DNA from: Panacibacter microcysteis
GTDB taxonomy: Bacteria > Bacteroidota > Bacteroidia > Chitinophagales > Chitinophagaceae
DNA length: 64,000 bases
Assembly (NCBI RefSeq): GCF_015831355.1
Contig: NZ_JADWYR010000001.1
Coordinates: 310,001-374,000, forward strand
Reading direction: 5' to 3'
Part shown: positions 30,678 to 63,685 of the stretch, piece by piece
Layout: every line of letters starts with the position of its first letter
Position numbering within the stretch: position 1 is the first letter of the stretch
Program-made: the position numbers and the translations under genes
The notes under the pieces: generated by a model
What the model was told of the DNA's origin: nothing
Seen by the model: only the letters and a program-made list of their open reading frames with translations
Database searches by the model: none

Positions 30678-30708
30678 GTGACTATAGGTTTTAAAAAAAT
30701 TTTGCGCC

Positions 30709-30716
30709 CAAATGTA
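30709..30716 (-). promoter_or_regulatory. -7 box of the susC operon
   Basis: TACATTTG (TAnnTTTG) on the minus strand, 31 bp before ATG 30677. The only TTTG upstream is about 13 bp away, closer than the consensus. Confidence 0.4.
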
Positions 30717-31002
30717 TGGGATTAATAACAAATGGTTAAATAAATTTAAACGGCTTGTTAAATTGTATAAACCAGCGAAAAAGACAATGAACGGCAGGCA
30801 GACGCTGCTTACATCCGTGAGTTTATTGTATATTATTTTTCATACTATGTATCATCTAACAATACAATTTGTTGCATATCTCTATCTGCATCCAAAAGAA
30901 CGTGGTATTTTTGAATTTTCACATATGATATTATAGAAAATATGTTGGTATTTCGAGCCGTGATATGTCTTAAATATCCCCTCAAATTGAATACATAAAC
31001 TA

Positions 31003-46223: not shown

Positions 46224-46256
46224 CAAATCCTTCACTAAAAAGAAAGCACCGTGCGC

Positions 46257-46264
46257 TATCTTTG
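46257..46264 (+). promoter_or_regulatory. -7 box immediately upstream of rlmN
   Basis: TATCTTTG ends 4 bp before ATG 46269. It falls inside the longer GTG-initiated frame, which argues for the trimmed start and a leaderless mRNA. Confidence 0.45.
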
Positions 46265-46268
46265 CGGC

Positions 46269-47312: not shown

Positions 47313-47315
47313 TTT

Positions 47316-49106
47316 TTATTGTTCCGGCAGGTAGGTTTTTTCAACAATGTGTTTCACGGCGTTGTCAAGATTATTGGCAGAAACCTGTAACAGTTCTACA
47401 ATGATCCTGTTTTCTTCGGTAAGTTGCTTTTTATCGAGCAGGCTGATCAGGTGTTGTATATTGGCCAGTGGCGAACGCACTACATGAGACTGCAGAAATG
47501 CTATTTCCTTTAAGCCTTTATTCTGTTCTTCCAGGAGGTTTTCTGTGCGCTTTATATTGGTGATATCGACAGCATTCAGCAAAACCGCATAGATCTCACC
47601 CCGCGAATTACGAACCGGGTTAAACCCTGTTCTCAGCCAGTATGTGGCGCCATTTACGTCTATACTTGTCTCCCAGCGCAAGGGCACTTTATCAATAAAT
47701 ACCTGTTGCACTTTTTCAAGCCAGTCTGCGGCAGTTGTGGAGTGCAGTAAACTGCCCATCTTTTTACCCGCAATAGCTTCGGCCGGCATGCGGAGAAAAT
47801 TTGCAGCCATTTGGTTGGCGAACAGGTAATTCATATCCCGGTCTACCATCATAATAAGATTGTCAACATTCTCCACCAGGCCTTTGTATTTTTCCTCGCT
47901 CTCTTTCAAAGCAAACTGAGATTGTTTCCAGTTGGTAATATCTCTCGATGCACTTAAAAACCGATGTGCATTACCGTCTTTATCCCTGATAACCCTGGTA
48001 GTTGTTTGAAAATATACATAATGCCCTTCCTTATGCCGTATGCGAAATTCTTCTTTAAATGAATCTATACCCTGCGAAACCCGAAGGTTATTTTTTTCAA
48101 ACAACCCTGCTGCATCTTCAGGGTGAATAAGATCAAAAGCGTTGTTGCCTGCAAGTTCAGCAGGCCCATAACCAAGCACTGTATGTGCGGAAGGTGAAAC
48201 ATATTCAAATACGCCGTTTACATCGTGCAATGCAACGAGGTCCAGTATGTTATCGGCCAGTAATTTGTAGTGGGCTTCGCTTTTTTTGAGTGCAGCATCG
48301 TATTTTACCCGGTGTGTTATATCCCTGCAGCATGCAAGTACATGTACTACTTCGTTATTTTCATTTCTTATAAACCTGCGCGTGGTGTGAAAATGCAGCC
48401 ATTTGCCGTCAGCATTTCGTAACCGGTACTCAAACACAAACTTTGCATCTCCGGGGAATAGTTCCGGTTTAAAATGTTTTTCTATGTACGCCTTATCGTC
48501 TTCGTGCAGTAAAAAGGCAGGATTAATGCCGGTAAGGCTTTCTGCAGTAAAACCCAGCAAATGGTCAACCGCCGGCGAAATATAGGCTATCCTACCATCG
48601 GTATTGTATAACACAACAAGATCTGTGGTATTTTCCGCAAGCAGCTGGTATTTTTTTTCATTTTCCTGGAAATGAAAAATGAGATTTTTCCACTTTGTAA
48701 TGTCTCTCACCACCACAGTAAAACCCGTATTTGGCATTACAGAAATTCTTGCGTTGTACCATTTTCCTGTTTTATTATGTTCCAGTTTATATTCGATCGA
48801 CTGTGTCGCTACCTCGGCTTCAGCCTTATCAAATGCAGCCTGCATTAGTGCAAGTACATCAGCAGGAAAAGAAACTTCAGTGATATTTTTGTTCAGGAAC
48901 AAAGCAGGTGGCAGTAAAAGGTCTGTTGATTGATGTTGAAAACAACGTTTAAAATTTCGCTGTTTATCCATCAGGAAAACAAGATCATCCATCGATGCCA
49001 GTATCTCGGCCATTTCTTCGGCAGAAATAAAATCCTGGCCGGTTTTCTTATATTGATTACGATATACACCAGGCAGTAATTGCCCGTTCATTTGCCCGTC
49101 CCTCAT
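47316..49106 (-). CDS. Multi-PAS protein with a DHp-like C-terminus but no kinase ATPase domain
   Basis: A 596-aa cytoplasmic protein. Four PAS domains follow each other at about 30-140, 150-262, 272-385 and 392-505; the last three begin with KYQLLAEN, HYKLLADN and KYKGLVEN. A short coiled coil and a DHp/HisKA-like helix pair then carry QSHVVRSPLANIQHL with His541. The chain ends at 596, so the HATPase_c domain of a histidine kinase is missing. Its stop lies 3 bp from the rlmN stop, leaving no room for lost sequence. It may pass signals by dimerising with, or being phosphorylated by, another kinase. The redox or ligand sensed is unknown. Confidence 0.85.
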   Translation of the reverse strand: MRDGQMNGQLLPGVYRNQYKKTGQDFISAEEMAEILASMDDLVFLMDKQRNFKRCFQHQSTDLLLPPALFLNKNITEVSFPADVLALMQAAFDKAEAEVATQSIEYKLEHNKTGKWYNARISVMPNTGFTVVVRDITKWKNLIFHFQENEKKYQLLAENTTDLVVLYNTDGRIAYISPAVDHLLGFTAESLTGINPAFLLHEDDKAYIEKHFKPELFPGDAKFVFEYRLRNADGKWLHFHTTRRFIRNENNEVVHVLACCRDITHRVKYDAALKKSEAHYKLLADNILDLVALHDVNGVFEYVSPSAHTVLGYGPAELAGNNAFDLIHPEDAAGLFEKNNLRVSQGIDSFKEEFRIRHKEGHYVYFQTTTRVIRDKDGNAHRFLSASRDITNWKQSQFALKESEEKYKGLVENVDNLIMMVDRDMNYLFANQMAANFLRMPAEAIAGKKMGSLLHSTTAADWLEKVQQVFIDKVPLRWETSIDVNGATYWLRTGFNPVRNSRGEIYAVLLNAVDITNIKRTENLLEEQNKGLKEIAFLQSHVVRSPLANIQHLISLLDKKQLTEENRIIVELLQVSANNLDNAVKHIVEKTYLPEQ

Positions 49107-49307
49107 TAGCAGTTATTTCTTGAAAGAGAATGTTCAGTTGTAAGATATAACGAAAATACAACCGGTTTTTATATACATTCTATGATTACTGTCATATATC
49201 TCCGGGCTTGTAGAATTCTAAATTGGCTTTTTTGCTGCTGCTAACCGCATAAGAAAACAATACAATACCTTTACCGCTCCTGTTGAAAAACAGCAAAACT
49301 GTATATT

Positions 49308-50390
49308 ATGGCAAAACATGCATTCGACAAGTTCATGAACAAAGAGTCCGGCGCAAAAAAGAAAGAAGCAATACGCCAGGAGAAAAGAAAGATAAAAAAG
49401 GAAATCCGTAAGAAGATCGAAGAATCCAAACTGCAAAAAGCTGCCGCTACCAATGGTTTTCTTAAAAAGAGGCTTGAAGCTGAAAAGACTGCCAAAAACA
49501 ATGACAAACCAAACAGCACTACGCCGCAAAGACCAGTAAACAGGCCTTCCAATACAACGGCTCCGCGTTACAAACAAGGCAAACCCGTAAAACAAACCTA
49601 CCAGCAGATAACACAAAAACCACAGCAGCAAAAAGAATCAGAAGCTGAACAAATGCCGCTGAATAAATATATTGCCCATGCCGGCATTTGCGGCAGACGG
49701 GAAGCTGCAGACCTTGTGAAAGAAGGAAAGGTGAAAGTAAATGGTTCTATCGTTTACGAGCCCGGTTATAAAGTAGGCGCCGCAGATAAAGTTGTTTTCA
49801 AGGGTAAACAACTTTATGCCCAAAAGAACCCCGTTTATATATTATTAAATAAACCCAAAGACTATATCACTACCGCAAAAGACCCGGAAGGCAGAAAAAC
49901 AGTACTTGATCTTTTAAAGGGCGCAACCGACGAACGCATTTACCCTGTTGGCCGGCTTGACAGGAACACCACCGGTGTACTCGTTTTAACAAACGATGGA
50001 GAACTGGCACAAAAACTCACCCATCCCTCGTTTGAAATAAAAAAAATCTACGAAGTAAGACTTGATAAGCCGGTAGCTAAAAAAGACCTCGAAGCCATTC
50101 TCGCAGGCGTTACGCTCGAAGATGGTTTCATCAATGCAGATGCGGTTTCTTATGCAGATGCAAAAGACAAAAGCGTGATTGGTATAGAGATACACAGTGG
50201 CCGCAACAGGATCGTTCGCCGCATTTTTGAACACCTTGGTTACGATGTAAAAAACCTCGACCGTGTTATGTTTGCCAACCTCACCAAGAAGAATGTTGAT
50301 CGTGGCAAATGGCGTTTTCTCACAGAAAAAGAAGTACGCCTGCTCAAATACATGAACAAATCGTTTGTAAGAAATAAGAAAGAAGAATAA
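49308..50390 (+). CDS. 16S/23S rRNA pseudouridine synthase, RsuA/RluB family
   Basis: A 360-aa enzyme with an unusual lysine-rich N-terminal extension of about 115 residues (EAIRQEKRKIKKEIRKKIEE and a Pro/Gln-rich linker). An S4 RNA-binding domain follows (MPLNKYIAHAGICGRREAAD), then the pseudouridine synthase domain with catalytic Asp in VGRLDRNTTGVL and RIVRRIFEHLGYDV. It isomerises uridines in rRNA, most likely 23S as RluB, though RsuA/RluE specificity cannot be excluded. The extension probably adds RNA affinity. The ATG at 49308 opens the basic extension. Confidence 0.9.
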   Translation: MAKHAFDKFMNKESGAKKKEAIRQEKRKIKKEIRKKIEESKLQKAAATNGFLKKRLEAEKTAKNNDKPNSTTPQRPVNRPSNTTAPRYKQGKPVKQTYQQITQKPQQQKESEAEQMPLNKYIAHAGICGRREAADLVKEGKVKVNGSIVYEPGYKVGAADKVVFKGKQLYAQKNPVYILLNKPKDYITTAKDPEGRKTVLDLLKGATDERIYPVGRLDRNTTGVLVLTNDGELAQKLTHPSFEIKKIYEVRLDKPVAKKDLEAILAGVTLEDGFINADAVSYADAKDKSVIGIEIHSGRNRIVRRIFEHLGYDVKNLDRVMFANLTKKNVDRGKWRFLTEKEVRLLKYMNKSFVRNKKEE

Positions 50391-50400
50391 AAACCATTTT

Positions 50401-50452
50401 GTACCAGGCTGCAGCATTGCTATGATGCTTTGGTTGCGTCGCACACTTGTAC
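50401..50452 (-). repeat. GTAC repeat unit, type B head (inverted)
   Basis: Inverted head GTTGCGTCGCACACTTGTAC at 50433-50452 (one difference). The unit begins GTACCAGGCTGCAGC at 50401, so it is exactly 52 bp from GTAC to GTAC. It lies between the two pseudouridine synthase genes. Confidence 0.88.
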
Positions 50453-50527
50453 GACATTGCATGTTTCACCATCTTCGGGTGCCACTACGCAATTTATTTG
50501 CAGCATCTTCCTGTTTATACATCAGTT

Positions 50528-51247
50528 ATGAGTAAACACAACAAACCACAGGTAATTTTTGAGAATCATCAATTTGTTGTAATCAATAAACCGTCCGGCT
50601 TACTCAGTGTGCCAGACCGTATGCAGTCAGAGCCATCGCTGAAAGATATACTGTTGCAGCAATACGGCAGCATTTACACCGTACACAGGCTCGACAGGGA
50701 TACGAGTGGTGTAATTGTATTCGCGAAAGATGATGTAACCCACAAAGAATTATCTCAGTTATTTGAAAGCCGGGATGTAGCAAAATATTATCTCGGCCTG
50801 GTTCACGGCAACCCTGCACATGAAACCGGCATCATAGACGCGCCAATGATGGAGCACCCTGCAAAAAATGGCAAAATGGTTACCCATCAAAAAGGGAAGC
50901 CTTCTTTAACTGAGTATGAAGTGCAGGAGCATTTCAAATTGTATGCATGGGTTAAGTTTCGTATTCATACCGGCCGCACACACCAGATAAGGGTACACAT
51001 GCAGCACATTGGTAACAGTATCGTATGCGATGAACTATATGGTTCGCCTGAACCTATATTGTTATCATCGCTAAAGAAAAAGTTCAATCTTTCCAAAAGT
51101 GAAGATATTGAACGGCCCCTGCTTTCACGGCTTGCATTACATTCTGCCAGCCTGCAGTTTATACACAAAGACACCAACTACAACTTCGAAGCAGAATTAC
51201 CCAAAGACCTGAAAGCAACTTTACAGCAGTTAAGAAAACTGTCGTAA
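50528..51247 (+). CDS. RluA-family pseudouridine synthase
   Basis: A 239-aa enzyme with the RluA catalytic motif HRLDRDTSGVIVF (Asp in LDRD), the INKPSGLLSVPD N-terminus and the C-terminal GRTHQIRVHMQHIGNSI. No S4 domain. It modifies uridines in 23S rRNA or tRNA; the exact site cannot be told. ATG 50528 gives the canonical start, since the longer frame runs back through a GTAC repeat. A single-gene unit by spacing. Confidence 0.92.
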   Translation: MSKHNKPQVIFENHQFVVINKPSGLLSVPDRMQSEPSLKDILLQQYGSIYTVHRLDRDTSGVIVFAKDDVTHKELSQLFESRDVAKYYLGLVHGNPAHETGIIDAPMMEHPAKNGKMVTHQKGKPSLTEYEVQEHFKLYAWVKFRIHTGRTHQIRVHMQHIGNSIVCDELYGSPEPILLSSLKKKFNLSKSEDIERPLLSRLALHSASLQFIHKDTNYNFEAELPKDLKATLQQLRKLS

Positions 51248-51420
51248 ATTTTTTTGGCGTAAAACACATAAATACAGCGCAGTTTCCGCGGCTGCAATAA
51301 GAAAATTTTACTAAAAAATGGCAATTTTCAGCCAGCAGTGTAAACGTTTGCACAATACTTTTACAATTGAATTGTACAACTCATTATAAACGATTTGCCT
51401 ACGGGCAATTTATGGTTGAC

Positions 51421-51451
51421 GGAGGTAATGTCTATTACCTCCTCTTTTTTA
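51421..51451 (+). terminator. Plus-strand terminator
   Basis: A 9-bp stem GGAGGTAAT / ATTACCTCC with loop GTCT followed by TCTTTTTT. It lies 174 bp past the RluA stop, and could end that transcript or a separate small RNA (a second hairpin TTGCC-TACG-GGCAA is just upstream). Confidence 0.8.
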
Positions 51452-51460
51452 TACAAGACC

Positions 51461-52777
51461 CTACAAAACCGGCTTTACCCCTGCAGCCTTTAACTGCGCC
51501 ACAATAAAATTACCTACGCCCCGGCCTTCTGCCTGGCCTTGTTCAATGGCATCACGATAATGAATACCACCATATAAACGGGATATTGCAGCTTCTTCTG
51601 CAGCCTGGCGGAAAGAGGAAAACGTTCGTGGCTGTAATTCAAACATGACCTCGGTATTATCTGTAAAAGCAAACGCATCACCAAAAAGATAACTCAGCAC
51701 TTCGGCCGATGCAGTCGAGATTACACTGTGACCGCTCGTATACTCAGGAAATGGCGGCGTTTGCAGCAATGGCTGCCACCTTACATCAATATAGTGGTTG
51801 ATATATGTTTCAGGTCTTATACGGTTACTCCGGAATTTTTCATCCCAGCAACTTATAAACGCATCCATGAGTGTAATGCCTGTAAGCGTATTCACTTGTA
51901 TCGTCCTGTCAAAATCTAACGAGGCCTTTTCAGCTGCAATTGCAGCAATATTCATCCAGTGGCCACCCGGGCTTATTTTTTTAAAACCCAGCGACATGTG
52001 CCCGGAACTGGCCACTACGAAAGGATTGCAATCCCAAAAACCGGCAATATTCAATTGCTCCTGCGTAGGCGCCAGCGAAACGTTGTACACTTCTTTGGCA
52101 AGCGCATAAAACGCACTTGTCGTGTCTTTGCTAAATGCAACAGGCGGCAAAGGCAAAAACTGGTTGCAGGAATCTATAACCAACGGCTTCACGGTACGCC
52201 AGTTTGGCTCCACAGCTTCCATGTAAGCCGGTGGTGTGGGAAACCAGTAACCTTCTCCTTTTACAGGCGTGTAACGCAACTTTGCGCTCAGCTTTCCATA
52301 GTCGTCTGTTTTTGACCACAACGCTATCTGCGCAGCAACAGACTTTGCAAGGCTTACCGAACTGTCTATAATGCTTTGTTTTACTTTTTGCTTTTTCAAT
52401 GCCGCAATAAACTTTTGCTGGTTTTCTTCCAGCATATAACCGGAAGGCAGCAACAACCTTCCCGACTCATAAATGGCGTATAACGATGCAATGCGGTAGT
52501 CATAATCTGTTTGCTGCATTGCAATGGAAACGGGTTGGTAACGCTTTACAAAACTTTGGAGCGGCACAATGCTGTTATTATGGTTCGCTATAATGTTATA
52601 GGCACCGAGCATGCAATACGCATAGTAGCGGCTGGCCGCGGGTGGGTTTACTACATCATGCATCATTACCATAGACAGGGAAAAAACTGCAGGCTGCACC
52701 ATTTTTTCGTAGGCAGCATTCTTCTGCCCCCTGGCTATAAGCGAGCAAAAAAGTAACAGTATAGTTAAGCGTTTCAT
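51461..52777 (-). CDS. Vanadium-dependent haloperoxidase / PAP2-like secreted protein
   Basis: A 438-aa exported protein (signal ending LIARGQ). The acid-phosphatase/haloperoxidase motifs are all present: KFRSNRIRP (Kx6RP), PEYTSGHS and SRLYGGIHYRD, whose last part has HxxD rather than the usual HxxxD. The family binds vanadate for halide oxidation or works as a phosphatase; the sequence does not separate these. ATG 52777 is chosen because the longer frame's N-terminus is translated from a GTAC repeat. It lies downstream of the FG-GAP protein and SusC/D genes on the same strand, a neighbourhood I recall for this family in Bacteroidota. Confidence 0.85.
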   Translation of the reverse strand: MKRLTILLLFCSLIARGQKNAAYEKMVQPAVFSLSMVMMHDVVNPPAASRYYAYCMLGAYNIIANHNNSIVPLQSFVKRYQPVSIAMQQTDYDYRIASLYAIYESGRLLLPSGYMLEENQQKFIAALKKQKVKQSIIDSSVSLAKSVAAQIALWSKTDDYGKLSAKLRYTPVKGEGYWFPTPPAYMEAVEPNWRTVKPLVIDSCNQFLPLPPVAFSKDTTSAFYALAKEVYNVSLAPTQEQLNIAGFWDCNPFVVASSGHMSLGFKKISPGGHWMNIAAIAAEKASLDFDRTIQVNTLTGITLMDAFISCWDEKFRSNRIRPETYINHYIDVRWQPLLQTPPFPEYTSGHSVISTASAEVLSYLFGDAFAFTDNTEVMFELQPRTFSSFRQAAEEAAISRLYGGIHYRDAIEQGQAEGRGVGNFIVAQLKAAGVKPVL

Positions 52778-52795
52778 TAAAGCGGTAATTTTTAT

Positions 52796-52987
52796 GTTAC
52801 AGGCTATGTTGCTACCATCAGCACCTGTTGTGTCACTCACTTGTACGTTTGGTTCGCTACTGAACGTGTGGCAGCCTTCCTGCTGCTACACCATCTTCGC
52901 TACAATCTTCGCGGTTGGTCAATAAAGATTCAACAGTACAAGAGTGCGACGCAACAGGAGTTTCATGTTTATTCAAATGCCGGGTAC
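52796..52987. repeat. Head-to-head GTAC repeat pair (A inverted, B direct)
   Basis: Perfect inverted A head at 52827-52846 and perfect B head at 52936-52955, 89 bp apart. The B unit runs exactly to GTAC at 52987 and the A unit begins GTTACAGGC at 52796. It fills the gap between the haloperoxidase-like gene and the FG-GAP gene. Confidence 0.9.
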
Positions 52988-52994
52988 CAAATAG

Positions 52995-55900
52995 TTAATT
53001 CATTGTATAAAACTGCATTGGACCATCTGCAACACCTATGCATAAAACTTTTGCGTTGTTTATGATGATGAACCCCGCAGATTTTACATCGCCTTTCACT
53101 GACAAACCGGAGACTGTTTGAGCGAGATACTTAAAAGTGCCTGCGCCGTCTCCTTTCAGAACACAACCAAAATTTGCATCCACAGCGCCGATCTTTAGAC
53201 GGTTGTCTGAGCGGTTGCCCAGCAATAAAATATCTTCTTTGCCATCTTTGTCAAAATCTTCGGTAATTATTTTTGTAACCACAGAAAACTGCGCCTGCAC
53301 CGGCAGCACTACTTTCCGGAATTTTCCATCGACATTCAGATAACAAACACTGTTGCATTCGGTAGCACTAAGCTTTCCGGCTTTTGCCATTTCATCCTGT
53401 GTAAAAATATTGTTCATGCCGGCCTCAGCATAATCTTTGTAAGAAGTAAATCTTTTGCGCATACTATAAATCTGTTCATTCAGTTCATCACGGCTTACAA
53501 AGGGGTAGCTTTTGCCCTGCACATAACAATTAAGAAAAGGGTCTATTGAACCATTGCCATCAAAATCTGCAAAAAATAATTCAGCGGGCTCTTTAGCAGA
53601 AAAATGTATTTGTGTATTGCGGCCCGTGTTGCCTGCAATTATATCAGGCTTACCATCTGCATTTACATCTGCCACATTTAATGAAAACCACAGGCCATTA
53701 TCCGGCGAGGCAAAATAAGTGTTGGTGCTGTCAGCAAAACCGTTAGCGTTATTAATAAAAACACTTACGGGCATAAATTCGCCACACATTACAAGATCCT
53801 GCCTGCCATCATTATTCAGATCGTGCCATTGTGCATCGGTTATCATACCGATATCGCTGAAGGCAGTATTTACAATTGAAAAATTTCCTTTGCCATCATT
53901 GTTGAGCAGGAAGCTCAAAGGCGTCATAGGATAGCGGCCCGGAACAATGCGGCCGCCTACAAAAAGATCAATGTCTCCATCATTATCATAATCGCAGGCA
54001 CGCACACAACTCTTTGAGCTGGCACTTACATCGGGCAAAGCGTTTGCTGCCAGCTTAAAGTTGCCTTTGCCGTCGTTGATATACAATTCGTCCTGCAATG
54101 CCGGTGTATTTGGCTGAAACAACGAAAAGCCGCCTTTGGCAATATAAAGGTCTGCAAACCCATCTGCGTTTACATCAGCAAAAGCAGCAGCACTTGTTGC
54201 ATTAACGTTTTCATCGCCGATTGCAAGGTCTTTTACCGGCATAAAACTGCCATCTTTTTGTTGCAGGTAAACAGTTCCCGGCTTACTGCGATCGCCGCTG
54301 ATGAACATATCTTCCATGCCGTCTTTGTTAACATCAGCAACAGCTGTAACGGGACCGGTTTTAGAATACATAAACATCATCAGCAACTGGCGCTTAAAAT
54401 CATTCTCATCGAAAGATTCGTTGCGGTATGTAATAACGTCTTTGGCTTTACTAAACAATGTTTTTAAATCATTGGCTGCGTAGTTGGCCGGCAAAGTATT
54501 TTGATACGCAACAGGCATTAGCTGGTTGGCTTTAACATGCAGTAAAATTTGCGCTGTATTGTCGGGCCAGATTATTTTAACTGAATCAACATAATCCTGG
54601 TTTGCTAAACCAACATGTGCAGTAACCGGCATGCAGGACAGGTAGCCACGGTTGGGGTTTATCTCCAGATACTGCACGCCTGTATTGGTATATACGTAAA
54701 GTTTGGAGCCAACAGCGTTTTTATTGGCTCCCTTATAAGTAAGTTTTATCGTGAGGTAAGAAGTCTTTTTTTGCTCCTGCTGCATATTACGGTATATGGC
54801 CACATTGCTGTTAATATGGTTTACAACAAGATCTAAATCTCCGTCATTGTCCAGGTCTGCGTATACAGCGCCATTGGAGATCGCAGCATCGGTCATACCC
54901 CACTCATTTTTCATATTTGAGAAAGTAAGATCGTGATTGTTGCGAAAAATATAGTTGTTTAAAGCGGTTGAAGGCATGGCCGTAACGAGGTCCATCAGTT
55001 TGGTTGGCTCACGGTCCATTGCTTTTTTTACTTTGTAATCTCCCCAGTAGCGCAGAAAATCTTTGTTGGTATAATCTCTCAAATAACCATTTGTAATAAA
55101 CAGGTCTTTGTACCCGTCGTTATCAAAATCGGCAAACAAAGGACTCCAGCTCCAGTCTGTATTGGAAACGCCTGACGCCTGTGCTATTTCGCTGAATGTG
55201 CCATCGCCATTGTTTAAATGAAGCATGTTGCGCATGTATTGCTTATACAATTCCTGCGATTGCATCAGTTGAAAAGACTCATAGTTTTCCTGTAGCTGCA
55301 GTAATTTCTGGCGGCGGTTATCTTCGGGCAGCATATCGAGGGTCATAATATCCGGCAGTGCATCGTTATTAAAATCTGCAATATCTACACCCATCGAAAA
55401 TTGCGACAGGTGTGTAAGCAACTGCCGGGATGTTTCTTTGAATGTGCCATCGTGGTTATTGATGTAGAGATAATCCGGTTCATTATAATCATTGGTTACA
55501 TAAACATCCTGCCAGCCATCTTTGTTAATATCTGCCACAGCTATGCCAAGGCCGAAGGTCAGCGGGTTGCGCCTTATGCCAGATTGGGCAGAAACATCGG
55601 TAAAATGATTATTGTTATTCTGGTACAGCTTATTTCCTGAAAGAGAATCTACATCGTTGCGGTAGCGCGCCAGTTCTATGTTGTCTATTTTCTTTGTGCT
55701 GTGGTTTAGCAGGAACATGTCGAGATCGCCATCGTTATCGTAGTCGAAAAAAGCGGCCTGTGTGCTATAGCTTCTATCGTCGAGGCCATATTGTTTTGCT
55801 TCTTCGCTGAATTTTGTGTTGCCTTTATTGATAAAAAGCTGGTTGCGCCTTACATCATCACTTACTTTGCCGGAATAACAAACATATATATCCATCAACC

Positions 55901-56270
55901 CATCTCCATTTACGTCAGCCATGGTGATACCGGTTTTCCATGCGTTGCTTCTTCCTTCTATACCGGCTTCTTTGCTGATATCTTTAAACTTCATTCCGCC
56001 AAGATTGAGGAAAAGTTTATTGGGCTTCATGTTGGCGGTAAAAAAAATATCTTCCAGCCCGTCGTTGTTAATATCTCCTACAGCAACGCCTGCACCGTTA
56101 TAAAAATATTCATATGCCAGTACATTGAGGTTTTCGTTCTCACTTATTTCATTGATAAATTTTACATTGGTTTCTTTTGGCGGCAGCAGCTGAAAAAGAG
56201 GTTGTGCATTTGTATTGGTTACAATGCACAGGATGGCAGCAAGTAAACCCATATAATACAAACACTTCAT
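52995..56270 (-). CDS. FG-GAP / VCBS repeat secreted protein
   Basis: A 1091-aa exported protein (signal peptide ending TNTNAQ). It contains many FG-GAP/integrin-like repeats with calcium-type loops (DINNDGLEDIF, DVNGDGLMDIY, DYDNDGDLDMF and others), arranged in two clusters around a middle ASPIC/UnbV-like segment (YLEINPNRGYLSC, DSVKIIWPDN). Such proteins form beta-propellers that bind Ca2+ and surface ligands. No type IX C-terminal domain is visible. It lies between the SusC/SusD pair and the haloperoxidase-like gene on the same strand, pointing to a shared extracellular function (inference). Confidence 0.85.
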   Translation of the reverse strand: MKCLYYMGLLAAILCIVTNTNAQPLFQLLPPKETNVKFINEISENENLNVLAYEYFYNGAGVAVGDINNDGLEDIFFTANMKPNKLFLNLGGMKFKDISKEAGIEGRSNAWKTGITMADVNGDGLMDIYVCYSGKVSDDVRRNQLFINKGNTKFSEEAKQYGLDDRSYSTQAAFFDYDNDGDLDMFLLNHSTKKIDNIELARYRNDVDSLSGNKLYQNNNNHFTDVSAQSGIRRNPLTFGLGIAVADINKDGWQDVYVTNDYNEPDYLYINNHDGTFKETSRQLLTHLSQFSMGVDIADFNNDALPDIMTLDMLPEDNRRQKLLQLQENYESFQLMQSQELYKQYMRNMLHLNNGDGTFSEIAQASGVSNTDWSWSPLFADFDNDGYKDLFITNGYLRDYTNKDFLRYWGDYKVKKAMDREPTKLMDLVTAMPSTALNNYIFRNNHDLTFSNMKNEWGMTDAAISNGAVYADLDNDGDLDLVVNHINSNVAIYRNMQQEQKKTSYLTIKLTYKGANKNAVGSKLYVYTNTGVQYLEINPNRGYLSCMPVTAHVGLANQDYVDSVKIIWPDNTAQILLHVKANQLMPVAYQNTLPANYAANDLKTLFSKAKDVITYRNESFDENDFKRQLLMMFMYSKTGPVTAVADVNKDGMEDMFISGDRSKPGTVYLQQKDGSFMPVKDLAIGDENVNATSAAAFADVNADGFADLYIAKGGFSLFQPNTPALQDELYINDGKGNFKLAANALPDVSASSKSCVRACDYDNDGDIDLFVGGRIVPGRYPMTPLSFLLNNDGKGNFSIVNTAFSDIGMITDAQWHDLNNDGRQDLVMCGEFMPVSVFINNANGFADSTNTYFASPDNGLWFSLNVADVNADGKPDIIAGNTGRNTQIHFSAKEPAELFFADFDGNGSIDPFLNCYVQGKSYPFVSRDELNEQIYSMRKRFTSYKDYAEAGMNNIFTQDEMAKAGKLSATECNSVCYLNVDGKFRKVVLPVQAQFSVVTKIITEDFDKDGKEDILLLGNRSDNRLKIGAVDANFGCVLKGDGAGTFKYLAQTVSGLSVKGDVKSAGFIIINNAKVLCIGVADGPMQFYTMN

Positions 56271-56380
56271 GCGACAGAATTTAAAAGCACGTAAACAATT
56301 GTTATGGTGGTTGCAAGTTAGCAGATAAAACTTATTCTATTGTGCGGGGATCGCATCGCACTGCCCAATAAAGTTATACC

Positions 56381-56502
56381 GTACAAGTGAGTGACACAAG
56401 GGACGATGCCACCCGTTCCAATGCCCGTTCAATACCCGGTATTTTTTTTGGGGTTACCGGCTGCAGCAGGCGTGTCATCTTTGTTGCGTCGCACACTTCA
56501 GC
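56381..56502. repeat. Tail-to-tail GTAC repeat composite (A direct, B inverted)
   Basis: A head at 56381-56400 (last base changed) with the tail GGGACGATGCC, then an inverted B head GTTGCGTCGCACACTTCAGC at 56483-56502. The spacing (82 bp between heads) is close to that of the 37.5-kb composite (85 bp). A degenerate B-like inverted head (GGATCGCATCGCACTGCC) may lie just upstream near 56348. The 56271-56642 gap otherwise holds a terminator only. Confidence 0.8.
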
Positions 56503-56565
56503 GCTTTATTATGAATGAAACTGAAGCGATCCGGAGCAAGCCCGCTTATACAAATGCAGGTTGTG

Positions 56566-56603
56566 CTAAAAAGAAGAGACAAGGCTGAAAACAGCCCTGT
56601 CTC
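56566..56603 (-). terminator. Terminator of the second SusC-SusD operon
   Basis: Stem GAGACAAGGCTG / CAGCCCTGTCTC (one mismatch) with an AAAA loop at 56576-56603, followed on the minus strand by TTCTTTTT. Confidence 0.8.
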
Positions 56604-56642
56604 ATGTCCATACTAAGGAAACACTGCTTGTGAAACTAAAAA

Positions 56643-58271
56643 TTATTTATCCCACCATACACGTGATGTCCATTTATCGCCACCATCGAGGTTACCTACC
56701 GCAGCCTGGTAATTATCGCTATTTGTCGTAGACTCAGATGTTGGGTATATATGTCTTCTTGGAATTGTTGCGTTGGCAAACTGTCCTGGATAAGTTACTG
56801 GCGTTAACTCAGGATAGCCTGAGCGTCTCCAGTTTGTCCAAGCTTCCGTAAAGTTTAAAAATGAACCTTCAGATAACCATAATTGTGTATTGATCAGTTC
56901 AAGTTCTTTTCCTGCAGTTAATGTTTGAGATGAGGCATAAGCCGTAATGGCTGCTGCATCTATTGCACCTGCGGAAGCGCTAAAGGTAGAATAAGTACCT
57001 AGTGCTGCTGCAATACCCTGCTGGTAATAATCCTGCGCAGAAAGCGAACCTACATTCCATCCCCTGAATTTAGCTTCGGCCAATAATAATGAGGTTTCAG
57101 TATACGATAAGAAAAAGATAGGTCCGTTAAGATCGTAGTATAATGCTCTTCTTGGACGTGAATATTTACCAAGAATTTCTGCAACAGATGTACCTGCACC
57201 AACAGCGCCGGGATAATCTGGCTCAGTTGCTATATAGTAAGGACTGGTATTGTTTGTAACATAACCATTTGGTACACCAAACTGATCTGCAGGAGTGGTG
57301 TTTGAAACTGTTGGTGTTACCGCAATATCAACTGCAGCTGCAATATCTACCACTTCAGATATAACAGGCAACCTGGGGTCGCTGGTTGACTTTAGATAAT
57401 TGATGAACTCTTTACCCCAGCGTATGTATTCGATATCTCCTGCCAGGGTTAGCACACGGGGATTTTCGCTACCATGCCCGGTTGCATTCTCGCCTTTGAG
57501 CAATGCGTTATCATCATTAGAGGTAAACACACCACCGGCATACGCTTTTTCAGCATATGACTGGGCTGTAGCTGCATCAACCTTTGTCAAACGCATTGCC
57601 ATGCGCAGCATTAAGGAATAGCCAAACTTTTTCCATTTTGTAATATCCCCATGGTACATAAGGTCTGCTGTAGGGCCAGGTTCACCAGTATTAAAATTTG
57701 TAAGGGCTACATCAAGCTCAGACAACATAGACATATAAATGGTCTGTTGATTATCATAAGGCGGAAAAATAGTACCAAGTGATGTACCGTCAAAACCTTT
57801 TAATGCTTCTGTATACGGTATGTCGCCATACATATCGGTAATATACTGGAGCGATAATACCTTCATTACTGTGGCAGCGCTCACAAGATTTGTTTTAGCT
57901 GCATCATCTTTATGCTTCTGAATAATAGCATCTGCATAACCTGCAGCACGGTAACAGTCGTTCCATGCCCTGCTTGCATAGTCGTTGGTATTTGATGATT
58001 CAACATATTTGTCCATATTAGACAAATACCCAGTAGAAGGCGCACCTAATATTTGTGCCCATCCCGATTCGAAAATGAAACCGCTTTCGTAGCCAGTTAT
58101 AGCACCCTTGTACTCGTTCTGGCTGCTTGCAAGAAAATATTCTGCATTGAACGTTGCAGGCGATTGCTGATTTGGATCAGTATTTATACTTCCAAAATCC
58201 TTGGTGCACCGTGAGCAAAGCAAGCTTATAGCTAATACACCAGTTAAAGTTTTTATACGCATGAATTGCAT
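56643..58271 (-). CDS. SusD/RagB-like nutrient-binding lipoprotein
   Basis: A 542-aa SusD-like_2 protein. After the signal come CTKDFGSINTDPNQQSP, TPR-type helices (VMKVLSLQYITDMYGDIPY, SYTETSLLLAEAKFRGW) and a C-terminal region with NFTEAWTNWRRSGYPEL and IPRRHIYPTSES. The lipobox is atypical (LLCSRC): if the second cysteine is lipidated, Arg is at -1; the first cysteine has Leu at -1. It starts 22 bp after its SusC partner. The locus lies beside ROK and AraC regulators, suggesting a sugar ligand (inference). Confidence 0.92.
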   Translation of the reverse strand: MQFMRIKTLTGVLAISLLCSRCTKDFGSINTDPNQQSPATFNAEYFLASSQNEYKGAITGYESGFIFESGWAQILGAPSTGYLSNMDKYVESSNTNDYASRAWNDCYRAAGYADAIIQKHKDDAAKTNLVSAATVMKVLSLQYITDMYGDIPYTEALKGFDGTSLGTIFPPYDNQQTIYMSMLSELDVALTNFNTGEPGPTADLMYHGDITKWKKFGYSLMLRMAMRLTKVDAATAQSYAEKAYAGGVFTSNDDNALLKGENATGHGSENPRVLTLAGDIEYIRWGKEFINYLKSTSDPRLPVISEVVDIAAAVDIAVTPTVSNTTPADQFGVPNGYVTNNTSPYYIATEPDYPGAVGAGTSVAEILGKYSRPRRALYYDLNGPIFFLSYTETSLLLAEAKFRGWNVGSLSAQDYYQQGIAAALGTYSTFSASAGAIDAAAITAYASSQTLTAGKELELINTQLWLSEGSFLNFTEAWTNWRRSGYPELTPVTYPGQFANATIPRRHIYPTSESTTNSDNYQAAVGNLDGGDKWTSRVWWDK

Positions 58272-58293
58272 TTTTAAAATAAGATGATCAAAG

Positions 58294-61200
58294 TTAGAAA
58301 GTCACTTTCAGGTTGACACCGATTGAGCGTGCAGATGGAAGATTACGACCTTCAATTCCATAATAATTTATGCTTGAACCGAAAGACTCTTCAGGATCTA
58401 TATTTTCCGCTTTCTTATACAATATGAACAGGTTTCTGGCAGTAAAAGAAAGCTGTGCGCCTTTGAACACTTTTGTTCTTTGTATAGTTTTTGCCGGGAA
58501 ATTGTATGTTAACGCAACCTGGCGCAGTTTTACAAAATCTCCATCTTTCACATGCAGTGCAGTAATGCGGGATGCAAGAGCCGTATAATAAGACTGTGCA
58601 GACACGTTTGTGGTATTCTTTTCTCCGCTTTCGGTAACGCCATCTACGACTAAACCACCTTCACGACCAACAAGTGTTTCTTTTAGCAAACCAGCACTCA
58701 TGGCAGATCTGCTGGTCATTGAGATAACTTTGTTACCAAAATTGTAATCAACTAGGAAGGAGAAACTGATATCCCTGGTTAATGTGAATTCGTTATTAAA
58801 ACCACCATAGAAAGTAGGTAACACACTACCGAGTGGCGTAACAGTTGCAGCAGCTAAAGGAATGCCTGAGCCATCAACAACAATATTGCCGGCAGCGTCT
58901 CTTCGGTAGTCGTAACCCAGAATCTGCGGGCCACGTAAACCAACTACATAAGCAGTAATCAGGTTGCCAAGTGTTTCTCTCGCCTGGCCCAGGTTGATGT
59001 TGCTGTTATCTTCTGTAGTGCTGAGAATTTTGTTTTGTACTTTTGTAATATTAAGAGAGGGCTTCCATGAGAAGTTTCCTGACTTTACAACTGTACCGCT
59101 GATAAGAATTTCGATACCACTGTTTTTTGTAGAACCGGTGCTAACGTATCCACTTCCGTAACCGCTTGATCTGCTAATTGTTGCACCCATAATCTCATTC
59201 TTCGTTTTCTTTGTAAACCACGCAACATCGAGGTTTAATTTTCCTTTGAAGAAATGAAGCTCCGTACCAAGCTCTATTTCATTTACAACAAATGGTTTTA
59301 AAAGACCGTTTGGAAGAGAAAGGTCATAAGTACCCAAAGGAATTCCGTTATAATTGTTCGTTTGCAAAGAGTAATAAATCTGCGTTCTATAGGCTTCAGA
59401 CAATTCATTACTTGTAGAAGCATAAGAAGCACGGAGCTTACCAAACTGAAGAATGCCCGGATTTTTTAGCAGTTCAGAGAAAATAAATCCACCTGTTACT
59501 GCAGGAACAAAAACTGTGTTATTGTTTACAGGTAAAGTAGAATATGCATCATAACGACCTGTAGTTCCTAAAGTAAGGAAATTGTTATAGGTAGCGTCTA
59601 TGCTATAATAAGCAGAATGAACTTCTGTAGCCCAGTTATCGTATTCAGAAAACTTATTGTATAGATTGTTATAGCTATAAAAATCTTTCTGTATAAACGG
59701 ACCACCGTACAGATGGCTCATTGAGTATTGGTTTTTCCTGAGGTTTGCACCAACGAGTGCATTTACTTCAATACTGTTAAACTTCTTGCTCGCACCAACA
59801 ATGCCATCCACATTTAGCTCAAACCTTTCTGATTTATCAAGATTTTGCAGATAACCGCTGGCGAAAACATTGTTTACAGTGGTGTTCCTGTAAGCTGTAC
59901 CCCAAGGCTCTATTTTGAAAGCATTATCGTGAATAAGGTCATATCCTACCCTTGCCTGTGCATACAACCAATCAGTAAAATTATATTTCAATGCAACTGA
60001 TGAGATCATTCTTTTCCGTCCGATATTGTTCTGGCTTTTATTTACCACGAACCATGGATTTTGGGAATAGATTCCACCCACAACAGTTTCAAGACCGGTT
60101 GTCAGGTCGTAACCGGGTGCCAGTGTTGCCTGGTCAATATTTGGCGCAAGAAACCTTACATTATTTACGTTCATCGGGGCATCACTTAATGCAGCGATGT
60201 TTTCGCTTTCCTGGTTGATGAAGTTAATATATGCCTGTACTGATAGCTTTTCTGTAATGTTCTGATCTGCATTCAGGCTGATACTGTAACGTTTTAAACC
60301 GCTGTTTCTAACAATACCTGTATTGTTTAAGTAAGTTAATCCAATACGGAATGAACCGGTTTCAGAGCTTTTTGATAGTGCTATAGAATTTGTCAGAGAG
60401 TTGCCAGTCTGGTAAAAGTTCTGAATGTTATCTTTTACTGCGCTGTAAGTGTAGTTTTTGCCATCGTATCCGAGGATTTGGCTACCATCCAACTTAGGAC
60501 CCCACGCAGAATACGCCGTGTTGATCGCATCAGTTTGGGTTGCAGGCTTTGCCCCCTGATCGCCCTGACCATATACATACTGAAAATCGGTAAGGTTCAT
60601 TGCCATGTCGGCCATGTAATTAAGGTTATACTCAACAGAAAAGTCTTTTCTGCCTTTTTTACCACCTTTTGTAGTGATCATAATAACACCATTTGTAGCT
60701 CTTGAACCGTATAAAGCTGATGCAGCCTGGCCTTTTAAAACAGTGATTGATTCTACATCATCAGGGTTGATGTTATTAATACCATCTCCATTATCAGAAC
60801 CGCCCCACTCACCAGCACTACCTCGCTGACTATTGTCCATAGGTATGCCGTTGATTACGAACAGCGGAGAACCTGACCCTGTCATACTTGGTAAACCTCT
60901 TAAAAGGAGTTTGGAAGTACCACCCGGTCCACTGTTAGTACCTCTTACACTAAGACCAGCTACCTGGCCGCCTAATGAATTGGCAATATTTGTCTCCCTG
61001 GCTTTGTTCATAGCGTCTCCGCTAACTGAAGTAACTGCGTAACCTAGTTTACGGGCCTGCTTTGATACCCCAAGCGCTGTAACAACAACTGTATTTAATT
61101 CATTTTGAGATTCAGACAAAGTAACATTTATTGTACTTTGTCCATCGATTGCAATTTCACGCTGGGCATAACCCACGCCGGAAAATACGAGTGTTCCATT

Positions 61201-61392
61201 TGATGGAGCAGAAAGATTGAAGGATCCATCCGCTTTGGTAATTGTTCCTTTGCTGGAACCTTTCACCAAAACATTAATACCTTCAATGCCGGAACCAGCA
61301 CTGTTTGACACTTTGCCGGTAACCGCAACATTCTGGGCCGTAGAGACAAGTGTGGCCGCGATGAATGCAAAAAGAAGGAGCAGTTTTTTCAT
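58294..61392 (-). CDS. SusC/RagA-type TonB-linked outer membrane transporter
   Basis: A 1032-aa protein with a signal peptide (LVSTAQ), a carboxypeptidase-regulatory-like domain (about 22-100), the TonB-box-like NTVVVTALGV, a plug with the SusC signature GQAASALYGSRATNGVIMITT, and a barrel ending RSIGVNLKVTF. It imports the ligand captured by the downstream SusD. ATG 61392 gives a standard signal peptide. The divergent gap of 159 bp to the ROK regulator contains a perfect 8-bp inverted repeat at 61433-61453, a possible operator. Confidence 0.95.
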   Translation of the reverse strand: MKKLLLLFAFIAATLVSTAQNVAVTGKVSNSAGSGIEGINVLVKGSSKGTITKADGSFNLSAPSNGTLVFSGVGYAQREIAIDGQSTINVTLSESQNELNTVVVTALGVSKQARKLGYAVTSVSGDAMNKARETNIANSLGGQVAGLSVRGTNSGPGGTSKLLLRGLPSMTGSGSPLFVINGIPMDNSQRGSAGEWGGSDNGDGINNINPDDVESITVLKGQAASALYGSRATNGVIMITTKGGKKGRKDFSVEYNLNYMADMAMNLTDFQYVYGQGDQGAKPATQTDAINTAYSAWGPKLDGSQILGYDGKNYTYSAVKDNIQNFYQTGNSLTNSIALSKSSETGSFRIGLTYLNNTGIVRNSGLKRYSISLNADQNITEKLSVQAYINFINQESENIAALSDAPMNVNNVRFLAPNIDQATLAPGYDLTTGLETVVGGIYSQNPWFVVNKSQNNIGRKRMISSVALKYNFTDWLYAQARVGYDLIHDNAFKIEPWGTAYRNTTVNNVFASGYLQNLDKSERFELNVDGIVGASKKFNSIEVNALVGANLRKNQYSMSHLYGGPFIQKDFYSYNNLYNKFSEYDNWATEVHSAYYSIDATYNNFLTLGTTGRYDAYSTLPVNNNTVFVPAVTGGFIFSELLKNPGILQFGKLRASYASTSNELSEAYRTQIYYSLQTNNYNGIPLGTYDLSLPNGLLKPFVVNEIELGTELHFFKGKLNLDVAWFTKKTKNEIMGATISRSSGYGSGYVSTGSTKNSGIEILISGTVVKSGNFSWKPSLNITKVQNKILSTTEDNSNINLGQARETLGNLITAYVVGLRGPQILGYDYRRDAAGNIVVDGSGIPLAAATVTPLGSVLPTFYGGFNNEFTLTRDISFSFLVDYNFGNKVISMTSRSAMSAGLLKETLVGREGGLVVDGVTESGEKNTTNVSAQSYYTALASRITALHVKDGDFVKLRQVALTYNFPAKTIQRTKVFKGAQLSFTARNLFILYKKAENIDPEESFGSSINYYGIEGRNLPSARSIGVNLKVTF

Positions 61393-61432
61393 CGTTTCTT
61401 AGCAGTTTAATTTAAAGAAATGGTTTTTGTTA

Positions 61433-61453
61433 AAAGATTTTAAACAAATCTTT
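61433..61453. promoter_or_regulatory. Candidate operator between susC and the ROK regulator
   Basis: AAAGATTT-TAAAC-AAATCTTT, a perfect 8-bp inverted repeat with a 5-bp centre, in the AT-rich divergent region. Its size fits a dimeric helix-turn-helix protein such as the adjacent ROK regulator. AT-richness raises the chance of coincidence. Confidence 0.4.
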
Positions 61454-61551
61454 ATCAAAATAAAATATTTTTACAATCAGTAATGTATTTAGTAAAATAA
61501 TTGCTAATTAATTCCCATTATTAGAATATTTTTAACCATCCTTCTTAATCA

Positions 61552-62781
61552 ATGAATTATTCAGTTTTTGGACACCTTAGCGGTGCCGAATTATCAGGAG
61601 TTGCTTTTAAAGAGCATTTGCATAAGAAGAAAATCATTGCGCAGTTAAGCATGCAGAAGGAATCTACTATCTCCGAACTGGCAGATCTTTTAAATATAAG
61701 CGTACCCAAAGCAAATGATGTAACAATGAGCCTGGTAGACGAAGGTCTTGTAAAAGAAGCCGGCCATAAAACAGAAGGTGTCGGGCGCAAAGCAACGATC
61801 TATACCCTTAATCAACATAGCTGTTACTTTTTGGGGGTGGAAATCAAGAAGTATAGCCTTAACCTTGCCCTGATGGGTTTCGATAAAAGTATTGCAGAGT
61901 CCAGACTGAATATTCCATTCCCGTTTAGCACGCCACATGATTCGCTTGATGCCATCGTAAAAACGATTACTGATTTTTTGGAACACTCTTTAATTCCAAA
62001 AGAAAAGATAGTAGGAATGGGGTTAAGTGTTGCCGGCCGTATAAATGTAAAAAACGGCGAAATACTAACGATTTACCATTTTGAAGATGCACCGGTAAAA
62101 AAAATACTGGAAGATGCAACAGGTTTACCGGTCTATATAGATAACGACAGCCGTACCATTGCCTATGGCGAATATTATTTTGGCCGAAAAAAATACCCTG
62201 AAAATGTAATTGTCATTAACCTGGACTATGGCCTTGGCACAGGAATTTTTGTTGAAGGCAAGCCTTTATACGGGGCGTCTGGCTATGCAGGTGAACTGGG
62301 TCATATACCTTTATTCAACAACGAAAAGATTTGCCTTTGCGGCAAAAAAGGCTGTATGCAAACAGAAGCTTCCGGTATGGCACTCATTGAACTGATAACC
62401 GGTAAAATGCAGGAGGGCAGTAACAGCCGCCTTAAACATATTCTGCAAAAAAAGGGCTTTATTGAACTGGAGGATGTAGTGGAAGCCGTGCATCTTGGCG
62501 ACAACCTGGCAATTGAAGGTGTAACGCGTATCGGTACTAATCTGGGTAAAGGTCTTGCCGTAGCCATCAATCTTTTTAACCCAAATGTTATAGTTATTGG
62601 CGGGAAATTGTCTGCATTGGGAGACTCTTTACTTTTACCTGTAATTCAATCATCAATTTTTCAATATTCTCTAAGTCTTGTAAATACGGATACAGAGATC
62701 ATTGTTTCCAGGATAAATGAAAAAGCCGGCCTGCTGGGTTGTTGCCTGCTCGTAAGGGACAAAACGCTTGGCCTTGTGTAA
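61552..62781 (+). CDS. ROK-family transcriptional regulator
   Basis: A 409-aa NagC/XylR-like regulator. An N-terminal winged helix-turn-helix (about 25-80; STISELADLLNISVPKANDV) is followed by a ROK sugar-kinase-like domain. The latter contains the zinc-site signature with GELGHIPL and the CLCGKKGC cysteines, and NLDYGLGTGIFV. It probably binds a sugar or sugar derivative and controls the divergent SusC/SusD operon (inference). It precedes the AraC-type gene by 34 bp, so both are likely cotranscribed. Confidence 0.9.
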   Translation: MNYSVFGHLSGAELSGVAFKEHLHKKKIIAQLSMQKESTISELADLLNISVPKANDVTMSLVDEGLVKEAGHKTEGVGRKATIYTLNQHSCYFLGVEIKKYSLNLALMGFDKSIAESRLNIPFPFSTPHDSLDAIVKTITDFLEHSLIPKEKIVGMGLSVAGRINVKNGEILTIYHFEDAPVKKILEDATGLPVYIDNDSRTIAYGEYYFGRKKYPENVIVINLDYGLGTGIFVEGKPLYGASGYAGELGHIPLFNNEKICLCGKKGCMQTEASGMALIELITGKMQEGSNSRLKHILQKKGFIELEDVVEAVHLGDNLAIEGVTRIGTNLGKGLAVAINLFNPNVIVIGGKLSALGDSLLLPVIQSSIFQYSLSLVNTDTEIIVSRINEKAGLLGCCLLVRDKTLGLV

Positions 62782-62815
62782 TTGCATTTAAAACCAAATT
62801 TATTCTATTGCAAAC

Positions 62816-63685
62816 ATGAAAGCACTCCAAACCGAAATTTCCAGCCTGCTGCATAGTTATATTGGTGTTATTGAAAGAAACGAGCCTTATTTTAAATCAC
62901 CCTTTCACTATCACCCGGAGTATGAACTGGTTTATGTAAAAGAAAGTACAGGTAAGCGCATTATTGGCGATAAACTCGATACATTTTCTGGTGGCGATAT
63001 GGTATTTATTGGCGCAAACCTGCCCCACGTATGGCTAAATGATGAGATCTACCACAAAGAACAGTCTACACTCCAGGCACGGTCGATTGTTCTTTACTTT
63101 AATAAAGAATTGTTCTCTAAAAATTTTTACGAACTGCGTGAAAGTGCTAAAATTACAGACCTTTTCAACCGTGCATCAAGAGGCATAAAAATAAACGGCA
63201 ATACACAAAAACAAATTGCCGAGAAAATGGAAGAGATTACGAGGTTGTATGACTTTGACAGGATCATATGCCTGATGCAATTACTGAATATACTGGCCAC
63301 TTCAAAAGATATAGAATATATTACCAACGAAGGTTATACCGGCACAACACTGCAAACCAAGCCAGACAGGCTTTCTGATGTGTACAAGTATATTACCACC
63401 AATTATTTCAACGATATATCGCTGGAAGAAATATCTAAGATTGCCAACCTCTCTCCTACCGCGTTTTGCAGGTTATTTAAACAAAGAACCAACAGGCATT
63501 TCGTGGAGTACCTGAATGAGGTTCGCATTTCCAATGCCTGTAAATTTTTACTGGAAACAAACCTGAATATTTCAGAGATCGCTTTTCAATGCGGGTATAA
63601 GACATTGTCGAATTTTAATAAGATCTTCAAAAAAACAACCGCACTCTCGCCTAAAGAATACAGGCAGAAAGCAGAAATGATTTAA
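62816..63685 (+). CDS. AraC-family transcriptional regulator
   Basis: A 289-aa regulator. An N-terminal cupin-like domain (FHYHPEYELVYVKES, GDMVFIGANLPHVW) probably binds a ligand, and two helix-turn-helices at the C-terminus match the AraC pattern (ISLEEISKIANLSPTAFCRLFK and NISEIAFQCGYKTLSNFNKIFK). Such pairs of ROK and AraC regulators suggest carbohydrate control of the neighbouring transporter. Short spacing to the ROK gene supports one transcript; no terminator is evident after the stop. Confidence 0.92.
   Translation: MKALQTEISSLLHSYIGVIERNEPYFKSPFHYHPEYELVYVKESTGKRIIGDKLDTFSGGDMVFIGANLPHVWLNDEIYHKEQSTLQARSIVLYFNKELFSKNFYELRESAKITDLFNRASRGIKINGNTQKQIAEKMEEITRLYDFDRIICLMQLLNILATSKDIEYITNEGYTGTTLQTKPDRLSDVYKYITTNYFNDISLEEISKIANLSPTAFCRLFKQRTNRHFVEYLNEVRISNACKFLLETNLNISEIAFQCGYKTLSNFNKIFKKTTALSPKEYRQKAEMI

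Follow-up and report, generated by a model that had tools for sequence, protein, structure and literature searches.

The structure of a bacterial vanadium iodoperoxidase, ZgVIPO1 of Zobellia (4cit/4usz), has been solved, yet to our knowledge there is no agreed physiological role for enzymes of this type. Here we describe six genes at 51461-63685 of a 64,000-nucleotide stretch of Panacibacter microcysteis DNA (hereafter the window), in which a protein homologous to ZgVIPO1 over its full length, with the same predicted fold and the same vanadate-site residues (V), is encoded behind a SusC/SusD uptake pair and a large double-propeller protein (F). As in the described SusC/SusD polysaccharide utilisation loci, SusC and SusD stand in tandem, with regulators alongside and an exported enzyme downstream; unlike in the usual loci, this enzyme is of the peroxidase type rather than a glycosidase, and a large protein resembling CRTAC1 follows SusD. 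CRTAC1 (cartilage acidic protein 1), which combines FG-GAP and ASPIC domains, resembles residues 22-591 of F, whereas F additionally has a second complete propeller (602-1091) and, by eye, a bacterial export signal. In the plant N-glycan loci of Bacteroides, SusC/SusD genes are found with glycoside hydrolases (GH) of families GH29, GH92, GH3 and GH2 (PMC9522356), as in relatives such as L132, discussed below; the portion of that paper available to us mentions neither V nor F, and the window cluster is without a glycosidase. A link between iodoperoxidases and FG-GAP/ASPIC proteins together with SusC/SusD was not found in the literature searched, which did not cover the original structure paper, where such a context may be mentioned.

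Based on our findings, we lean towards regarding the six genes as one exported nutrient-acquisition system, in which the uptake of a glycoconjugate would be combined with a halide-oxidising enzyme of the cell envelope. A preliminary description of this DNA, made from the sequence alone, had listed a SusC/SusD pair, a 1091-aa FG-GAP/ASPIC-like protein, a PAP2-fold protein and ROK and AraC regulators; all are present where it had put them, and their families pass the Pfam cut-offs. The four genes on the minus strand are transcribed in the order SusC, SusD, F and V. SusC (1032 aa, 58294..61392) is a TonB-dependent outer-membrane transporter of the SusC/RagA type (TIGR04056, 549 bits with a cut-off of 368; Pfam Plug and CarbopepD_reg), and the adjacent gene encodes a SusD-like surface lipoprotein (542 aa, 56643..58271; SusD-like_2 PF12771, 3.3e-70; SusD-like PF12741, 3.7e-64), a pairing that makes this a SusC/SusD uptake locus. 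F (1091 aa, 52995..56270; Pfam FG-GAP_3, FG-GAP and UnbV_ASPIC) appears by eye to carry a signal peptide. V (51461..52777; Pfam PAP2) comprises 438 aa from its most likely start, ATG 52777, which opens a signal-peptide-like sequence, while the alternative start, GTG 52840, lies inside a repeat copy; the F-V gap of the window is therefore 217 nt. On the plus strand, a ROK-family transcriptional regulator (409 aa, 61552..62781; PF00480, 1.7e-52) is divergent from SusC and is followed by an AraC-family regulator (289 aa, 62816..63685; HTH_18 PF12833, 2.9e-23, with a weak cupin match in the N-terminal part). Both regulators had been described as divergent, which is true of ROK, while AraC merely lies downstream of it on the same strand. 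No carbohydrate-active enzyme was found among the ten genes scanned at 46251-63685, and the locus is not a polysaccharide utilisation locus in the strict sense.

When V was compared with all PDB sequences, the top match was 4cit/4usz (E 1.5e-110, residues 29-432), and the next-best match reached only E 0.0014. A structure model of V built from 35 sequences (mean pLDDT 89.7) aligns with 4usz at Z 54.0 (405 residues, 43% identity, rmsd 2.1), as compared with Z 28.7-31 for chloroperoxidases and related bacterial haloperoxidases, 17.6-19.1 for bromoperoxidases and the A. marina enzyme, and about 16, over about 200 residues, for acid phosphatases. The seven residues which we take to be the vanadate-binding site of the haloperoxidase family (K314, R321, S348, G349, H350, R400 and H406) are all intact; among 49 V proteins with F directly upstream in the survey described below, K, R, H, R and H occur without exception, S in 48/49 and G in 47/49. 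Both the sequence and the predicted fold place V among the iodoperoxidase-type enzymes. The earlier assignment to a PAP2/haloperoxidase fold holds for the PAP2 domain and is amended here to a full-length enzyme of the iodoperoxidase type.

We compared the neighbourhood of V in two samples. The named set consists of the best 80 of at least 586 confirmed relatives in GTDB genomes, and is biased to close relatives rather than random. The less biased phylum survey, in which 296 genomes were drawn and 60 had V at E <= 1e-20, gave 99 stretches outside the window's genome in addition to those around its own copies, several of them cut by contig ends; 102 of these 103 loci were counted (L049, with no V open reading frame (ORF), was omitted). 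F is directly upstream of V on the same strand in 77 of the 80 named loci and 49 of the 102 survey loci, and within four genes upstream in 60 of the latter. After 16 loci were extended upstream, 43 of these 60 also had same-strand SusC/D genes upstream; in 13 of the extended loci the F genes, or the edge of the stretch beside them, directly adjoin SusD or its pair, and other genes intervene between the SusD pair and the F genes in L207-L209 (three genes in both L208 and L209). In the named set, SusC or SusD is present in 69 stretches and SusD, F and V are contiguous in 52. The F and V genes overlap by 4 or 1 bases in 33 of the 77 adjacent named pairs, the F-V gaps of relatives being usually small or negative, and all six genes recur in identical order in a congener (G398, L229). 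No natural fusion among V, F, SusC and SusD was found in the ORFs of the 80 named and 110 other loci.

The four proteins are also co-inherited. Across 50 complete loci and the window, pairwise evolutionary distances are correlated (SusC-SusD 0.99, F-V 0.91, SusC-F and SusD-F 0.84, SusC-V 0.82, SusD-V 0.81; permutation P value <= 0.001 for every pair), values that partly reflect shared organismal history. In a tree of the 102 V proteins, the presence of F within four genes upstream changes 17 times, compared with 32.5 in shuffles, and the window V falls in a clade of 13 rows which are all F-linked (13/13); this tree and the 26-row trees below are quick trees without a mixture model. We conclude that the F-V gene cluster with SusC/D is common to many genera of Bacteroidota. 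The preliminary description had stated that FG-GAP and haloperoxidase-like genes recur together near SusC/D, which the neighbourhoods in both samples support. Its proposal of a single system was to be dropped if relatives had no conserved neighbourhood and the units were expressed independently; the first of these conditions is contradicted by the F-V adjacency, the correlated distances and the gene order of the congener.

The arrangement includes the enzyme of known structure. The V protein of one survey genome (G182) is 98.8% identical to the 4cit segment, and this is therefore a Zobellia-type genome; here, V lies directly behind three F genes on the same strand. ZgVIPO1 thus belongs to the F-V arrangement, with a reservation over the distance of SusC/D that is taken up below.

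Other surroundings of V were seen as well. Seven loci (L017, L064, L067, L073, L075, L077 and L084) represent a second context without a directly adjacent F, in which a small protein precedes V in six of the seven, a further V-like gene is found in five, and outer-membrane-type proteins (by eye) follow V in several. A protein that looks by eye like a cytochrome/copper-monooxygenase lies between SusD and F in L041 and L044 (the L044 copy without a Pfam match) and adjoins V in L186; L044 also has a redoxin-like protein.

Further information on which parts belong together comes from the congener. Its F, V, ROK and AraC proteins are 81, 73, 80 and 86% identical to those of the window, whereas SusC and SusD share only 55 and 48%. 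Among the compared proteins, the congener's SusC and SusD are closest to those of Dyadobacter diqingensis (65 and 66%), and those of the window to other genera. In 26-row trees, window and congener are grouped for F (support 100) and V (99), while this grouping is rejected by the approximately unbiased (AU) test for SusC (p-AU 0.0007) and SusD (p-AU 0.0001); it should be noted that SusC and SusD of the window form long branches with an uncertain nearest relative, and that the AU test can share the model's pull, as the program warns. These comparisons indicate that the SusC/SusD pair has been swapped in place inside a constant frame of F, V, ROK and AraC. A third genome (G385, L230) has kept ROK (71%) and AraC (78%) beside a distant SusC/SusD pair (30/27%); the stretch contains no F, and V is disrupted, lacking roughly residues 55-201 and with a stop codon at the joint. 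This single case fits a dependence of F and V on the right SusC/D. Elsewhere in the window, a second SusD-like_2 gene is found at 26162-27409, and a long upstream ORF (27555-30731) may be its SusC.

F has 14 motifs of the calcium-type DxDxDGxxD pattern, seven before and seven after its ASPIC/UnbV domain (residues 519-584, 54519..54716 on the minus strand; PF07593, 1.9e-16), and the count is 10-14 across 75 V-adjacent F proteins. In a structure model from 44 sequences (mean pLDDT 90.1), residues 22-591 match murine CRTAC1 (9etn) at Z 38.1 over 460 residues, while residues 602-1091 match the LGI1 propeller at Z about 30 and aldos-2-ulose dehydratase at Z 29. As modelled, F is a CRTAC1-like seven-motif propeller with an ASPIC domain, followed by a second seven-motif propeller, and its combination of an FG-GAP propeller with an ASPIC/UnbV domain places it in the CRTAC1/ASPIC family. 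The window's genome encodes twelve full-length FG-GAP/ASPIC paralogues, ten of them with a SusC-family ORF within a stretch of roughly 20 kb, and has a second locus, of the order SusC-SusD-F-V-F, around C2:1517400-1527000 (L018).

The preliminary description also stated that a repeat pair and a terminator separate the units. Both are present, although neither is a peculiarity of this locus, the repeats being dispersed genome-wide and the hairpin old. The terminator-like hairpin after SusD (56576..56603, minus strand), with a 12-pair stem and a T-run, has the most pairs in our scan. By a simple criterion of our own, applied to SusD-F gaps of >= 30 nt, such hairpins are found in 41 of 51 gaps of relatives, compared with 5.2 expected from mononucleotide shuffles; the gap of the congener has one as well. 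The SusD-F hairpin is therefore an old feature rather than a recent break, and given the small or negative F-V gaps, SusC-SusD, hairpin, F-V is the usual layout.

Arm matches place copies of the dispersed repeat between F and V (52825..52957, two inverted arms) and between SusD and F (56381..56498). Its motif GTGYGACRCAAC has 807 exact copies in the 5.2-Mb genome, compared with 3 for a reversed control, and the repeat has two arm types, with cores GTGCGACGCAACA and TGAGTGACACAACAG, that often form inverted pairs. All 22 window sites of both arm types (<=2 mismatches) are intergenic, though about 85% of the window is ORF. Many intergenic copies and inverted pairs are features of repetitive extragenic palindromes and bacterial interspersed mosaic elements (REP/BIME), which this repeat resembles. 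Among 60 genomes of the order, the repeat 13-mer occurs 464 times here, 57 times in G033 and once in G327; the genome has two Y1_Tnp matches, whose closest repeat sites, at distances of about 2.1 kb and 0.9 kb, lie to a single side within the stretches compared, and no RAYT-type transposase flanked by the repeat was seen there. At its F-V junction the congener likewise has arms of both types, with a further single arm in its SusD-F gap. We therefore rejected a disruption of the cluster by the repeats or the terminator, as the hairpin is common in relatives and the F-V junction of the congener has repeat arms too.

The regulators accompany the cluster in the nearest relatives. The ROK domain is over its cut-off, while the N-terminal winged-helix matches (TrmB and HTH_24, residues 26-70; E 0.0006 and 0.0015) are below theirs, and with 196 bits against the NagC model (cut-off 650) the protein is not assigned as a NagC equivalog. 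Besides that of the congener, ROK orthologues are found in L127 (Foetidibacter luteolus, 65%) and L137 (63%), in both of which they are divergent from SusC as well, and AraC has a 74% identical orthologue in L127. ROK-type regulators, lower-identity ones included, occur in 15 of the 80 named loci, and in five of these (L165, L184, L191, L196 and L197) the regulator stands directly before F-V on the same strand. The region between SusC and ROK (61393..61551) is a candidate operator by position; no operator shared by the ROK-SusC intergenic regions of the window, L127 and L137 was evident by eye, without a motif test.

The surroundings of V in relatives point to carbohydrates. In the 80 named loci, the families found near V, as checked on representatives, are GH29 (16), GH92 (11), GH3 (9), GH2 (6), GH20 (2), BNR sialidase-like (4) and Asparaginase_2 (4); each is found in 0/53 survey loci without a directly adjacent F, and 17 of the closest 29 named loci (L127-L155) have at least one of them. 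GH29, GH92, GH2 and GH3 are each families with other substrates too, besides those of plant N-glycans. In L132 the gene order is SusC-SusD-F-V-GH29-GH92-GH2-GH3, and these four families together are described, in the part of the source available to us, as a plant N-glycan breakdown set (PMC9522356). In the survey, trehalase is a neighbour in 5/49 F-adjacent and 4/53 non-adjacent loci, a sucrose-phosphorylase-like protein just under its cut-off in 3/49 F-adjacent loci, and sugar transporters are also found near V. Kojibiose hydrolase (GH65; the representative is over the NCBIfam cut-off) is found in 10/53 loci without an adjacent F and 0/49 with one; L053, L055 and L062 are among these ten, and L055 also has genes near V that look by eye like those of a glycerol facilitator and glycerol kinase. 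Because neighbouring sugar genes vary by clade, we rejected the idea of one sugar cargo common to the phylum. This variation suggests that the cargo differs and that F and V stay more constant.

A number of observations weigh against a single uptake system. In the survey, F is missing altogether from 37 of 102 V loci and found only at another place of the locus in five; of the 60 loci with F close upstream, 17 lack SusC/D upstream on the same strand within the stretch. In the window itself F and V do not overlap, and in L127 F is not located between SusD and V. In the Zobellia-type genome, SusD and SusC lie on the same strand but further upstream, with five genes between SusD and the F genes, whereas SusD and F are adjacent in the window; two of the five look by eye like DNA polymerase genes. 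In that genome, the uptake pair therefore need not share an operon with F and V. As for the sugar genes, the 53 survey loci without a directly adjacent F are other V lineages and not a matched control, and the 49 F-adjacent survey loci contain few of them (GH29 3, GH2 3, GH3 2, GH20 2, GH92 1, others 0), suggesting that the glycosidase link is a feature of the window's closer relatives. With neighbours that vary by clade and no glycosidase in the window, the cargo is a guess, and N-glycan-type glycopeptides are our best guess for the window's clade.

Other roles for V would also be compatible with parts of these data. Haloperoxidases and PAP2 acid phosphatases share an active site, and V in vivo might be a phosphatase that strips phosphate from imported phospho-glycans or nucleotides; the shared PAP2 core, the alignment of acid phosphatases with the V model and the presence among its matches of 3bb0, a phosphate intermediate in apo-chloroperoxidase, agree with such a role. 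We consider it improbable, however, since V fits the iodoperoxidase over its full length in both sequence and model, and even other haloperoxidases reach just Z 17.6-31. Rather better placed, though still unlikely in our view, is a function in defence or detoxification, with V handling peroxide and halides at the surface and sharing no more than an operon with uptake genes that serve in the vicinity of algae, plants or fungi. As far as the sources were available, Zobellia vIPO3 shows higher expression on Ascophyllum nodosum than on alginate (PMC9296495), and a glucose oxidase together with a haloperoxidase is held responsible for iodine uptake by Arenibacter C-21 (PMC5064120), both in keeping with a defensive function, whereas the tight coupling of F and V and their co-inheritance with SusC/D favour a role tied to uptake.

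The Arenibacter strain also bears on the suggestion that the module imports iodine itself, with V making hypoiodous acid and SusC/D taking up an iodinated product. According to the accessible part of the same report, this member of the Flavobacteriaceae accumulates iodine, the uptake needs glucose, oxygen and calcium, and five or more V homologues are encoded in the genome (PMC5064120); the calcium requirement can be set beside the 14 calcium-type motifs of F. Sugar-pathway neighbours and sugar-type regulators suggest a carbohydrate cargo instead, making iodine import quite improbable, although no search was aimed at halogen-metabolism genes. The iodine uptake of this strain would be compatible with halide-oxidising uptake as well. 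A chance or loose co-location could be argued from the high copy numbers in the genome, where SusC/D, FG-GAP proteins (12 full-length) and V (four long copies and a weaker fifth) are common, and from the terminator and repeats between the units. It was rejected by the neighbourhood survey, as the recurrent order, the overlaps, the congruent distances, the recurrent terminator and the identical six-gene order in the congener leave it hardly any likelihood.

In the single exported system that we favour, SusC and SusD would form an outer-membrane pore and its lid, binding and importing a glycoconjugate, and would set specificity as the exchangeable part. F and V would be a fixed pair working beside SusC/D outside the cytoplasm, where V would oxidise iodide or bromide using vanadate and hydrogen peroxide and F may serve as a dedicated partner of V or as a substrate-capturing scaffold. 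Control of the cluster may lie with AraC and with ROK, whose ligand is probably a sugar set free from the cargo. More tentatively, and with less than even confidence, we propose a widespread 'halide-oxidising uptake operon' of Bacteroidota, in which a CRTAC1-like double propeller and an iodoperoxidase-type enzyme, often encoded by overlapping genes, would act at the envelope on what exchangeable SusC/SusD pairs import, so that iodoperoxidases such as ZgVIPO1 may serve nutrient acquisition rather than being free-standing halogen enzymes.

That vanadium iodoperoxidases recur behind SusC/SusD and a CRTAC1-like partner suggests that they function in the context of nutrient uptake. The exchange of SusC/SusD within a constant frame amounts to a natural experiment that indicates which parts go together. 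The placement in such a cluster gives these enzymes a testable role and a partner protein, and ties halogen chemistry to glycan uptake.

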